25,630 bases of DNA, taken from positions 1 to 25,630 of the forward strand of contig JBFLYA010000034.1 in assembly GCA_040757115.1 (NCBI GenBank). The letters run 5' to 3'. The position numbers were made by a program, and so were the translations under genes. This stretch comes from a bacterium. GTDB lineage: Bacteria > UBA9089 > CG2-30-40-21 > SBAY01. Shown here in pieces: positions 660 through 15,687 of this stretch (the stretch's first letter is position 1; each line of letters begins with the position of its first letter). The notes beneath the pieces are model-generated. The model saw nothing but the letters and a program-made list of their open reading frames with translations, was not told where the DNA came from and made no database searches.

Positions 660-952
660 TAGAGCTGTAAAAAAAACACCAGATATGAATAAACCAGATA
701 CGAAGTTCACGAAGAAGTATTCATCCTCTGTTAAGGCAATGTTAAATTTATTGGTAACTATTCAGCCACCAAGGCACCAAGACACAAAGAATATAAAAAA
801 TAAACATAGTAGAAGAATCTATTGCCAAAGAAAAAGATTTATCTGCCATTAAGACATGAAGGTTAAAACCTTGTTTTTAATTTGATTTTCTTAGTGCCTT
901 AGTGTCTTTGTGAGTGAACAGTTACATTTATTGTTAGGCAAAAGGATAGAAA
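660..952. other. Intergenic region holding a miniature element
   Basis: An open frame across 649-852 is not believed to be a gene because it runs through the inverted-repeat element. The stretch consists of AT-rich sequence, the element at 754-925 with its target duplication, and the short left flank of hicA including GTTAGGC at 933-939. Confidence 0.6.
754..925. mobile_element. MITE-like element, 172 bp, with 8-bp target duplication
   Basis: The ends are inverted repeats: the left end starts GTAACTATTCAGCCAC and the reverse complement of the right end starts GTAACTGTTCACTCAC. About 29 of the first 38 positions match. The element is flanked by a perfect 8-bp direct repeat, ATTTATTG, at 746-753 and 926-933, as expected for transposition with target duplication. 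It has no credible coding content. Similar ends recur at 1508-1668, 8030-8354, 9927-9940, 18572-18585 and 20387-20421. A non-autonomous element moved by a transposase elsewhere is the likeliest explanation. Confidence 0.7.
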
Positions 953-5228: not shown

Positions 5229-6554
5229 TTACAGAATCGAAAGATACTTATCTAACTCGTACTGAGTTACCTGAATCCGATAATCTTCCCATTCCTTCTT
5301 TTTCAAATTAATGAATCTTGGGAAGATATGGTCGCCAAGTGTCTTTTTGACTAATTCGCTCTTTTCAGCAATGGATACTGCCTCTCCCAGACTACCTGGT
5401 AATGATTCAATCCCCAATTCTTTCCTTTCGTCATCAGTTAAATGATAGAGATTTTTCTCCATTGGCTCTGAGAGTGTATATCCTTTTTCAATGCCATCTA
5501 AGCCTGCCTGAAGCATCACGGCGAAGGTAAGGTATGGATTGCAAGCAGGGTCAGGACACCTTAACTCTGCCCTGGTGGCTTGCTCCTTGCCTGGATGATA
5601 GACCGGGATTCTCATTAACGCTGAGCGGTTACGATTACTCCAGGCAATATAAACAGGTGCTTCATAACCCGGGACAAGCCGTTTATAAGAATTCACCCAC
5701 TGGGCAAAAATAGCGCTCATCTCTTTAGCATAGGTTAATTGTCCGGCAATAAACTGTTTGGCGACATTGCTTAAGTGATATTTATCGTTTGGGTCAAAGA
5801 AGGCGTTCTTATTTCCTTTAAAGAGGGATTGGTGGGTATGCATACCACTACCATTTATCCCAAAGACTGGCTTGGGCATAAATGTGGCATAGACTCCATA
5901 TTTCTGAGCTATTTCCTTGACCACTAAACGATAGGTCATAACATTGTCTGCCATCTTCAGTGCATCTGCATACCTCATATCAATCTCATGTTGGCTATGG
6001 CCTACTTCATGGTGACTATATTCAATATGAATACCCATTGCTTCTAAAGCCAGAATGGTTTCGCGCCGCAAATCACTTCCTGCATCAAGGGTAGTCAAAT
6101 CAAAATAGCCTCCTTCGTCAAGCACATCAGTAGCATCAGAGGAATTGAAGTAGAAATACTCAAGCTCTGGTCCAAGATAATAATGGTCAAAACCCATCTC
6201 TTCCATCCTCTTTAATGCCCTTTTCAAGACATATCTTGGGTCTCCTTCATATTTTTTACCTCCAGGCACCAAAATATCACAAAACATCCTGGCTACAGCA
6301 TTCTCTTTTGGTCTCCAGGGAAGTAATTGGAATGTCTCTGGGTTAGGCATAGCAATCATATCGCTTTCCTCAATATCTTGATAGCCGGTGATTGACGAGC
6401 CATCAAACCCCATTCCATGGTCTAAGGCATTCTCAATCTCCTTGTCGGTTATGGCAAAACTTTTTAACTGACCGAGAACATCTGTAAACCATAACCGAGT
6501 AAACTTTACATTGTTCTCCTTGACTAATTTGAGCACATCATCTTTGGTTAGCAT
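5229..6554 (-). CDS. glnA: Glutamine synthetase type I, copy 1
   Basis: This protein makes glutamine from glutamate, ammonia and ATP in the cytosol as a dodecamer. The start is placed at the second ATG, giving 441 residues, because GGAGGTG lies six bases before it; the upstream ATG at 6569 has no ribosome site. Visible motifs are GFDGSSITGY, GPELEYFYF, the metal-binding HHEVGHSQHE, NGSGMHTHQSLF, the active-site NRNRSALMRIP and RAELRCPDPACNPY. The length and lack of the ~25-residue insertion fit the GSI-alpha class, which is not adenylylated. The arginine that mediates feedback inhibition in Bacillus (FVRIEESD) is Asp here (YQDIEESD). A paralogue lies at 14365-15687. Confidence 0.95.
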   Translation of the reverse strand: MLTKDDVLKLVKENNVKFTRLWFTDVLGQLKSFAITDKEIENALDHGMGFDGSSITGYQDIEESDMIAMPNPETFQLLPWRPKENAVARMFCDILVPGGKKYEGDPRYVLKRALKRMEEMGFDHYYLGPELEYFYFNSSDATDVLDEGGYFDLTTLDAGSDLRRETILALEAMGIHIEYSHHEVGHSQHEIDMRYADALKMADNVMTYRLVVKEIAQKYGVYATFMPKPVFGINGSGMHTHQSLFKGNKNAFFDPNDKYHLSNVAKQFIAGQLTYAKEMSAIFAQWVNSYKRLVPGYEAPVYIAWSNRNRSALMRIPVYHPGKEQATRAELRCPDPACNPYLTFAVMLQAGLDGIEKGYTLSEPMEKNLYHLTDDERKELGIESLPGSLGEAVSIAEKSELVKKTLGDHIFPRFINLKKKEWEDYRIQVTQYELDKYLSIL

Positions 6555-6673
6555 ATCTAACACCTCCATCTTTATTTTTTACCCTGTATAACGAGGGATA
6601 TATATTAAAGTAAAAAATCAGCCCTTTTGGTAACCTCTTTTCTCATCTTAATCCGTGTGACAAACTTTTAATA

Positions 6674-8029: not shown

Positions 8030-8354
8030 GTAACTATTCAGCCACAGATGGACACGGCTGAAACACTGAAAATTCGTGAATCGTGTCCGGTATCCGTGTC
8101 CGTAGTCAGGCTGAAGGGTTCTTCTGAAAATCGGGACTCGGGAAGGCTGGTAGCCGCACGACCCATGCTCTGCATGGGTGCCCCGAGCCTGATTTCACCT
8201 GTGCCAGTGGAAGAGATTTCCACCCCCTTAATCCCCCGCCAGCGGGGGACAACCTGCCTCTGACCTCTATCTTCTGCCCTCTGCCTTCTGACCTCTGCCT
8301 TCTGCCCTCTGTCTTCTGCTATTTATCCGTGTTAATCTGTGGTTGAATAATTAC
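8030..8354. mobile_element. MITE-like element, 325 bp, compound
   Basis: The left end GTAACTATTCAGCCACAGAT and the reverse complement of the right end (GTAATTATTCAACCACAGAT) match at 18 of 20 positions. Inside are a perfect hairpin ACCCATGCTCTGCATGGGT, a CCCCCGCC-AGCGGGGG palindrome that also occurs at about 13474-13490, and a purine/pyrimidine tandem tract. The flanks ATTAATAG and TGGAATAG agree at 5 of 8 positions, which may be a decayed target duplication. The mixed contents suggest several small repeats nested in one element. Confidence 0.55.
8255..8322 (+). repeat. Tandem CCTCTGCCTTCTG-type tract
   Basis: About 68 bases of imperfect 6-7-base units (CCTCTG, CCTTCTG, ACCTCTG) lie inside the larger element. 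The array is degenerate, so the copy number is only approximate. Confidence 0.7.
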
Positions 8355-8443
8355 TGGAATAGTTACCATATTTTTTCTTCGTGGTCTTCGTGCCCTTCGT
8401 GGTTTACCTTAACTGCACAGGTCGAAATTTTCCTTTTGATTTT

Positions 8444-10425: not shown

Positions 10426-11682
10426 ATGGCACAATTGCATAAGAAATTCACGGATAATGAGGTCAAAGAACTAATTGAACGCTATCTAAAAAAGGAACTT
10501 GGAAGAAGGTATCTTCAGAAAATTCTGGATATTGGTAAGGTAAGATTCTTTGCCTTAATAAAAAATTATCGTAATGCCCCTGATTTATTTTCAATTCAAT
10601 ATGCCAGAAAGATTAAAACTCGAAAGATACAGCCAGGCATTGAAGAAAATATCATCAAAGAGCTAAAGATTGAAAAAGAGCTTATTGACAATAAAGAGGT
10701 GCCTCTTAAATCTTATAACTATACCTATATCAAAGACCGGTTAGAGACTGAGTATCAACAAAAGGTCTCCTTGCCTACCATTATCAATAGAGCTAAAAAC
10801 AATGGTTTCTATTTGGAAAAGAAACCTAAAAAATCAACCCATGACCGTCAAGTATTAACCAATTATGCAGGGGAATTGATTCAACACGATTGCTCTTATC
10901 ATTTATGGTCGCCTCCAGCTAAAGAAAAATGGTATCTCATAACTTCTTTGGATGACTTTAGTCGCTTTATACTTTATGCTGCTCTACTAAAAAAAGAAAC
11001 ATCCTGGGCTCATATTCTTGCGGCTCAAACCGTTATCCTACAGTATGGTTCGCCTCTGTCTTACTATGTAGATAACCATTCTATCTTTAGATTTGTCCAG
11101 GAAAGAGATTCCCTCTATCGTAAACATCACCTTCTCACCGATGAAGTAGACCCTCAGTGGAAACAAGTCATGAACGATTGTAATGTCAAGGTAACCTATG
11201 CCTCATCTCCTCAAGCCAAAGGTAAAATCGAAAGACCTTATGCTTGGCTACAGGATAGACTTGTCCGAACCTGTGTTAGAGAAAATGTAACTGATATAAA
11301 AATCGCACAACACCTTCTTCTGAAAGAACTTCATAGATATAACTACCGCCAGATACATTCAACCACTCAAGAAGTCCCTTATCTTAGATTTCAAAATGCC
11401 TTAAAAAACAAACAGTCCCTCTTCAGAGACTTTAAAGTCAAACTGCCTTATTTATCTGTTAAAGATATTTTCTGCTTGAGAATTAACAGAACTGTAGATG
11501 CTTACAGAAAAATCTCCATTAATAACTTACAAATTAAAGTTAATGCTAACCCAAGAGAAACTGTAAATCTTCGTATCTCTCCCATAGATAACGATATATT
11601 AGAAATCAGATTCTGGTGTAATGATAAACTTATCGATGCCCAACGAATCAAACATACTGACCTTAAAAGTGTTCACTTTTAA
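10426..11682 (+). CDS. DDE transposase with integrase (rve-type) catalytic core
   Basis: This 418-residue protein has an N-terminal helix-turn-helix region (KKFTDNEVKELIERYLKKEL, roughly 6-50) and an rve-type core. Candidate catalytic residues are Asp155 in LIQHDCSYH, Asp216 in YYVDNHSIF and Glu269 in PQAKGKIERPYAW, giving a DDE triad with the usual 50-60-residue final spacing. The C-terminal region is basic and probably binds the repeated end boxes. The frame is intact and complete, so the element may be active. The IS family is not assigned; IS481 or ISNCY-like groups are candidates. The gene ends inside the right-hand end boxes. Confidence 0.88.
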   Translation: MAQLHKKFTDNEVKELIERYLKKELGRRYLQKILDIGKVRFFALIKNYRNAPDLFSIQYARKIKTRKIQPGIEENIIKELKIEKELIDNKEVPLKSYNYTYIKDRLETEYQQKVSLPTIINRAKNNGFYLEKKPKKSTHDRQVLTNYAGELIQHDCSYHLWSPPAKEKWYLITSLDDFSRFILYAALLKKETSWAHILAAQTVILQYGSPLSYYVDNHSIFRFVQERDSLYRKHHLLTDEVDPQWKQVMNDCNVKVTYASSPQAKGKIERPYAWLQDRLVRTCVRENVTDIKIAQHLLLKELHRYNYRQIHSTTQEVPYLRFQNALKNKQSLFRDFKVKLPYLSVKDIFCLRINRTVDAYRKISINNLQIKVNANPRETVNLRISPIDNDILEIRFWCNDKLIDAQRIKHTDLKSVHF

Positions 11683-14364: not shown

Positions 14365-15687
14365 TTATAGCATCGGCAAATATCTATCTATTTCATGGGA
14401 AGTAACCTGGATTCTATCATTATCCCATTCTTTCATTTTATTATGGAGGAATCTGGTAAAGATGTGTTCACCAAAGGTTTCTTTGACCAATCGGCTTTTT
14501 TCAGTCTCTTGTAAGGCTTCAAATAAATTCCCTGGCAGATGTTTTAATTTTCTATATTCGCGTTCTTCTGGTTCCATGTGGTAGAGGTTGGGTTCAACTG
14601 GTGGAGGAAGTTCGTATTTATTCTTAATCCCTTCTAATCCAGCCGCCAACATCACGGCGAAGGCAAGATATGGGTTACAGGCGGGGTCTGGACAGCGCAG
14701 TTCTGCCCGTGTGGCTTGCTCACTGCCTGGCCGATACATCGGCACACGAATAAGTGCCGTTCGATTGCGGTGAGCCCAGGAAATATAGACCGGAGCTTCA
14801 TAGCCAGGCACTAACCTTTTATAAGAATTTACCCATTGGGATAAAATAGAGCATATTTCGCGGGCATGTTTTAATTGACCAGCAATAAAAGACTTCGCTG
14901 TCACAGACAGATTATGTTCATCGTTTGGGTCAAAAAAGGCGTTCTTTGTGCCCTGAAATAAAGATTGGTGAGTATGCATGCCCGAACCATTTACCCCAAA
15001 CACGGGTTTAGGCATAAAGGTAGCATAAACACCTTCCTGCTGAGCAATCTCCTTTACCACCATCCGATAGGTCATAGTATAGTCAGCCATAGTAAGTGCA
15101 TCTTGATACCTCAAATCTATTTCATGTTGAGATGGTGCTACCTCATGATGTGAAGTCTCAACCGGGATACCCATCTCTTCTAATACCTTGACTGTCTTTT
15201 TTCTAAGTCGATTAGCCAGGTCATAAGGCACTATATCAAAATATCCACCTTCGTCTAACCCTTTTGCTTCCTTGTTAGATTTAAAATAAAAATATTCCAA
15301 TTCAGGCCCAATATAGTAGGTAAATCCTAACTCTGCGGCTTCCTTAATGACCTTTTTTAAGACATATCTTGGGTCTCCTGGATATGGGGAACCATCAGGA
15401 TTAAGAATATCACAAAACATCCTGCCAACAGGTTCTTCTACAGGTTCCCATGGTAACAACTGAAATGTTTCTGGTTCAGGTTTAGCCAGAATATCACTCT
15501 CTTCAGCCTCAGCAAATCCAGTAATCGATGACCCATCAAAACCCTTTCCGTGTTCAAATGCCGATTCAACCTCTCTATCGGTTATAGTTACACATTTAAG
15601 GAAACCAAGCACATCGGTGAACCAGAGTTGAATATTTTTGACATTCTTCTCCTTTATAATCTTTAAAACTTTATCTACCTCTTTCAT
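14365..15687 (-). CDS. glnA: Glutamine synthetase type I, copy 2
   Basis: This 440-residue paralogue of the enzyme at 5229-6554 shares all catalytic blocks: GFDGSSITGF, GPELEYFYF, HHEVAPSQHEIDLRY, NGSGMHTHQSLF, NRTALIRVP and RAELRCPDPACNPYLAFAV. It is also GSI-alpha in length. At the Bacillus feedback-inhibition site the arginine is replaced by Glu (FAEAEESD), unlike the Asp of copy 1. AAAGGAG lies ahead of the ATG. It sits between mazEF and the nucleotidyltransferase pair, 1.1 kb from the glutamate synthase gene, with which it would form the ammonia-assimilation cycle. Confidence 0.95.
   Translation of the reverse strand: MKEVDKVLKIIKEKNVKNIQLWFTDVLGFLKCVTITDREVESAFEHGKGFDGSSITGFAEAEESDILAKPEPETFQLLPWEPVEEPVGRMFCDILNPDGSPYPGDPRYVLKKVIKEAAELGFTYYIGPELEYFYFKSNKEAKGLDEGGYFDIVPYDLANRLRKKTVKVLEEMGIPVETSHHEVAPSQHEIDLRYQDALTMADYTMTYRMVVKEIAQQEGVYATFMPKPVFGVNGSGMHTHQSLFQGTKNAFFDPNDEHNLSVTAKSFIAGQLKHAREICSILSQWVNSYKRLVPGYEAPVYISWAHRNRTALIRVPMYRPGSEQATRAELRCPDPACNPYLAFAVMLAAGLEGIKNKYELPPPVEPNLYHMEPEEREYRKLKHLPGNLFEALQETEKSRLVKETFGEHIFTRFLHNKMKEWDNDRIQVTSHEIDRYLPML

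Follow-up and report, generated by a model that had tools for sequence, protein, structure and literature searches.

A probable IS66-type miniature element with an 8-bp target duplication beside an integron cassette

The element and its neighbours

The window (the whole stretch of 25 630 nt analysed here) contains near its left end a miniature element that directly adjoins an integron cassette encoding HicAB. The layout of the locus is ...GTTAA ATTTATTG / GTAACTATTCAGCCACCAAGGCACCAAGACACAAAG ... CTTAGTGCCTTAGTGTCTTTGTGAGTGAACAGTTAC / ATTTATTG TTAGGC..., and its features are as follows.

746–753, unstranded: left copy of the 8-bp target duplication ATTTATTG, read directly; the duplication length in the family is exactly 8
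754–925, + strand: IS66-type MITE of 172 bp without coding capacity (orthologue L050 at 99.6% including flanks; independent 92% copy L068 in G001)
754–765, + strand: left tip GTAACTATTCAG; the identical 12-mer terminates decayed IS66 elements L112 and L133
767–793, + strand: left arm, CACNAAG words at an 8-bp period, recurring in several phyla
886–912, − strand: right arm, CACNAAG words, inverted
914–925, − strand (reading inward on this strand): right tip GTAACTGTTCAC
926–933, unstranded: right copy of the target duplication ATTTATTG, its last G being the first base of GTTAGGC
934–1508, + strand: neighbouring integron cassette (TTAGGC...attC), outside the MITE, with relatives L324 and L325
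953–1171, + strand: hicA (HicA, PF07927, 1.2e-9)
1147–1386, + strand: HicB-like ORF, from the ORF list
about 1380–1514, + strand: attC

The first-pass annotation had described a miniature element bracketed by a perfect 8-bp duplication, and the copies of ATTTATTG at 746–753 and 926–933 do flank 172 bp exactly. It was also right that the ends are imperfectly inverted, but the length of about 38 bases given there is slightly short, as the arms at 754–798 and 881–925 measure 45 nt and are 78% complementary. As single-stranded DNA the element forms one hairpin (z = −3.4) that was equalled in stability by 0 of 200 shuffled sequences. MITEs are short, about 50–600 bp, and carry no transposase gene; the element falls within this description, as 754–925 is free of overlapping ORFs of 80 aa or longer and a transposase gene is absent. 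That no IS66 transposase is encoded there is as expected for a MITE, and for this reason the element was filed as an IS66-type MITE and not as an IS66 insertion sequence. Searching the window against Rfam gave no known RNA.

The insertion had been placed next to an integron cassette boundary, and GTTAGGC at 933–939 is a real one: it opens the HicA-toxin cassette, and homologous cassettes in G005 and G006 likewise start at a GTTAGAC core. DNA of attC type resembling 1380–1512 repeats in relatives G001 and G003, which suggests cassette arrays in this lineage; in the window the HicAB cassette with its attC stands alone between the NusG_II gene and lepA. Elsewhere in the window, positions 93–262 hold another high-copy repeat that is unrelated to the MITE tips and has dozens of copies (roughly 80–98%) in G001, and two similar glutamine synthetase genes (5229–6569 and 14365–15687, 446 and 440 aa) lie about 8 kb apart.

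Copies, target duplications and empty sites

Queried with the whole element, the host genome gave 70 matches, most of which cover the ends, and the 16-base head GTAACTATTCAGCCAC had 343 matches there with up to two mismatches against one for the reversed control. G001, a relative of the same genus, carries the orthologous insertion (L050), flanks included, at 99.6% over 961 bp, and elsewhere an independent copy (L068; 92% identity) that has the 8-bp repeat GATTATTC on both sides. Because L068 bears its own 8-mer, the repeat varies with the site while the element stays constant. This bears on the 24-mer made up of ATTTATTG and GTAACTATTCAGCCAC, which occurs more than 20 times and could be read as meaning that the ATTTATTG duplication is element sequence; that reading was rejected, since L068 and other copies have different 8-mers at both ends. 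The recurrent copies of the 24-mer also have a different right flank, TTTATTTC, and at least one of them lies inside another element, so that the duplication in the window is not undermined. At L086 (2682–2882) an outer element, itself bracketed by a perfect 8-bp duplication (AAAATGGG), encloses a 92-bp GTAACTATTCAG element. The recurrence of the 24-mer would be explained if one element inserted into a sister and the composite then spread, and nesting of this kind may be a source of new interiors.

Duplications were counted at inverted tips lying 50–700 bp apart, some pairs overlapping, in 1.25 Mb of the host genome; many of the contigs sampled had been chosen for carrying the 16-mer, which biases copy densities and leaves the duplication test unbiased. 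Exact 8-bp flanking repeats were present at 27 of the 150 pairs, where random re-pairing of flanks predicts 0.23. Flank matches of 5, 6 or 7 bp were seen at one pair only, and none reached 9 bp or more. Many pairs have no duplication, some of these being false pairings or nested copies, and the target sites are A+T-rich with no consensus. The earlier suggestion had been that genome-wide copies lacking consistent ends or target duplications would speak against a mobile element; what the genome holds instead is common tips and 8-bp repeats at more than 100-fold the chance level.

The proposed comparison with empty sites in relatives succeeded for two sister elements but not for the copy in the window. 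The sister elements (L073, 14752–15005, and L145, 3397–3645), which have other interiors, correspond in G001 to clean empty sites holding single copies of CTATTTTG and CAGACCAA. The empty sites are direct evidence that the elements inserted after the two species had split or were lost precisely from one of them, and insertion is the simpler reading because the duplication is present. For the window element no empty site was found: G001, the only close relative, is occupied (L050), and G002 and G003 are too diverged past the NusG_II gene. Two further candidates were set aside, L082 in G003 because the alignment is too poor to use, and the site in G000 (the host genome) corresponding to L068 because it is uninformative, the locus carrying a different, GTAAGCGTTCAG-type end. 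L068 also carries a block of about 147 bp, distinct from the repeat at 93–262, with dozens of occurrences in G000.

Further IS66-type ends occur in the window itself. At 8030–8366 there is a second, larger element of this type with left end GTAACTATTCAGCCACAGATGGACACGG, a doubled right tip GTAACTATTCCAGTAATTATTCAACCAC and no clear duplication, and lone tips (one end only) lie at 1668, 9939, 18573 (e.g. GTAACTATTCACCACGAAGAGCACGAAGG), 19231 and 20421; the lone tips are probably decayed copies.

IS66 transposases and the tip code

Ends starting with GTAA together with an 8-bp duplication suggested IS66 as the family to search. In a PF03050 search of 20 genomes, IS66 transposases were found in 12, nearly all of them of the same phylum. 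L109 485–2221 has GTAACTACTCAG at both ends and between them an intact 522-aa transposase (PF03050 1.5e-40; NF033517 283.7 bits, the cut-off being 180). Other elements of the family are L110 1339–2843 (tips GTAACCGTTCAC), L111 893–2455 in the host genome (tips GTAACCGTTCAG, decayed), L112 1242–2455 (tips GTAACTATTCAGCA, decayed) and L133, also in the host genome (tip GTAACTATTCAGCACA, partial and ended by the contig edge). The transposases of L109 and L110 are each a single ORF with DUF6444, zf-IS66 and DDE_Tnp_IS66 domains, and both score above the NCBIfam IS66 cut-off; at 25% identity to each other they represent two lineages. The first-pass annotation had advised looking for an autonomous element with GTAACTATTCA ends: IS66-family transposons were indeed found, but none is intact in this assembly, where the best transposase copy has two stops and the rest are fragments. 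G001 gave only weak IS66 transposase matches.

Elements with L109-like transposases (L112, L115, L121, L123 and L133) have tips GTAA[CT]TA[CT]TCA, and those with L110-like transposases (L111, L113 and L117) have tips GTAACCGTTCA. The two commonest MITE tips in the host sample are GTAACTATTCAG (143 sites) and GTAACCGTTCAG (144 sites). Tip class tracks transposase lineage, a correspondence that makes the assignment of partners testable, and the tip code is consistent with two lineages of mobiliser. Similarity of the window element to the IS66 elements examined stops after about 12–14 bases, with no common interior sequence. The four two-ended IS66 elements have no 8-bp duplication of their own (3/8 for L109, 1/8 for L110, 3/8 for L111 and 2/8 for L112).

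A transposase ORF within the window (10426–11682) was considered as the mobiliser and rejected, as it resembles ISNCY and IS481 types below cut-offs and not IS66. It encodes a 418-aa integrase-like transposase, under the NCBIfam cut-offs of both ISNCY and IS481, and possibly belongs to an undescribed IS group.

Identity of the element and its wider family

ISDge4 (ISBst12 group, IS66 family), for which transposition has been observed, carries tips GTGACTACTCAGCA / GTAACTGCTCAGCA and makes an 8-bp duplication (PMC12898284), and the IS66 elements ISPpa5a and ISPpa7 likewise duplicate 8 bp (PMC3281130). The ISBst12 group (e.g. ISBst12, ISDge4), among the closest known systems, shares with the window element the GTAAC...TCAG tips and the 8-bp duplication, whereas the window element has only 172 bp and no transposase.

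On sequence grounds, the element is very probably an IS66-family MITE, of the single-ORF ISBst12-like group, that is mobilised in trans. Under this reading the element, which encodes nothing, would offer its GTAAC...TTCAG/C tips as recognition ends for an IS66-type DDE transposase supplied by autonomous elements elsewhere. The transposase would join both ends to an A+T-rich target with an 8-base stagger in the cut, and host repair would fill in the 8 bases to give the flanking duplication. We infer the chemistry of the step and, from the shared tips, the joining in trans by an IS66 transposase.

Target duplications of 8 bp are made by several families, e.g. IS256, ISL3, IS1595, ISAs1 and IS6, and a MITE moved by one of these would match IS66 tips only by coincidence. 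The duplication length alone is not diagnostic of IS66, the IS6 element ISPpa9 also having 8 (PMC3281130), and the assembly has no intact IS66 transposase; we nevertheless regard such a mover as improbable, since the 12-base tips are found in, and co-segregate with, two or more separate lineages of IS66, and ISDge4 has tips of the same type. The position of the insertion raises another possibility, that the element travelled together with the cassette boundary or was directed to it, since the duplication edge and the cassette crossover fall at one position, 933^934. This is a single case, however, and the 27 other duplications with 7–8 matching bases are A+T-rich with no core-site consensus, so we think a link to the integron very unlikely. 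With only this one example, we regard the ending of the duplication on the G of the G^TTAGGC crossover as coincidence.

A structural or regulatory repeat of REP/ERIC-like type, spread by recombination or copying and with an accidental 8-base repeat, would account for the stable hairpin and for the arm words that also occur without IS66 tips (matches to query 15–59 in G042 and G058). It is contradicted by exact 8-bp repeats far over chance that differ in sequence from site to site, and by the clean empty sites; these two observations already refute it for the family, and for the window element its probability is very low.

MITEs of bacteria are well known, and the element in the window is the MITE of a known transposon family; the greater interest lies in why arms of the CACNAAG type go with IS66 tips in several phyla. 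We found no published description of IS66-family MITEs in the literature, of which coverage was partial, and a string search of papers for the tips and arm words gave no relevant match. MITECca01 (IS982; PMC9769881) is, like the window element, short, gene-less and multi-copy, with inverted ends like those of a resident IS and a duplicated target, and MITEPsy1 (related to ISPsy2, 4-bp duplication; PMC3189936) has the same general features. Both differ from the window family in mobiliser family and duplication length, and the window family is further set apart by its hundreds of tips, by several interiors unrelated to each other and by CACNAAG arms common to several phyla. IS66-type MITEs are an abundant repeat class in the host genome, with several unrelated interiors under one tip code.

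The exact 16-mer head was present in 8 of 193 genomes, three of which, belonging to the same phylum, carry dozens of copies. Elements of constant size with perfect tips and lineage-specific interiors were seen in six members of the phylum and in one genome outside it. A GTDB scan for the head with CACNRAG arms gave at least 120 stretches; the contigs among the matches listed are labelled Syntrophaceae, Desulfobacteraceae, Nitrospinae, Elusimicrobia, Neomarinimicrobiota, Cloacimonadota, Latescibacterota, KSB1 and Deferribacteres. Of 71 tip pairs at these loci, 28 are flanked by exact 8-bp duplications (0.06 expected; none at 9), in a set selected for arms that gives no frequency of arms among IS66 MITEs. 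The same build in several phyla means that CACNAAG-type repeats of environmental genomes can, in some cases at least, be given a concrete identity. A rather doubtful proposal is that the arms, instead of being passive filler, are a selected part of IS66-type MITEs, as subterminal sites for transposase or host factor or as a required hairpin; if true, this would explain the recurrence of this build with 8-bp duplications in Desulfobacterota, Nitrospinae, Elusimicrobia, Neomarinimicrobiota and others. The sister elements have arm words CAC(A/G)GAT at a 10–11-bp period.
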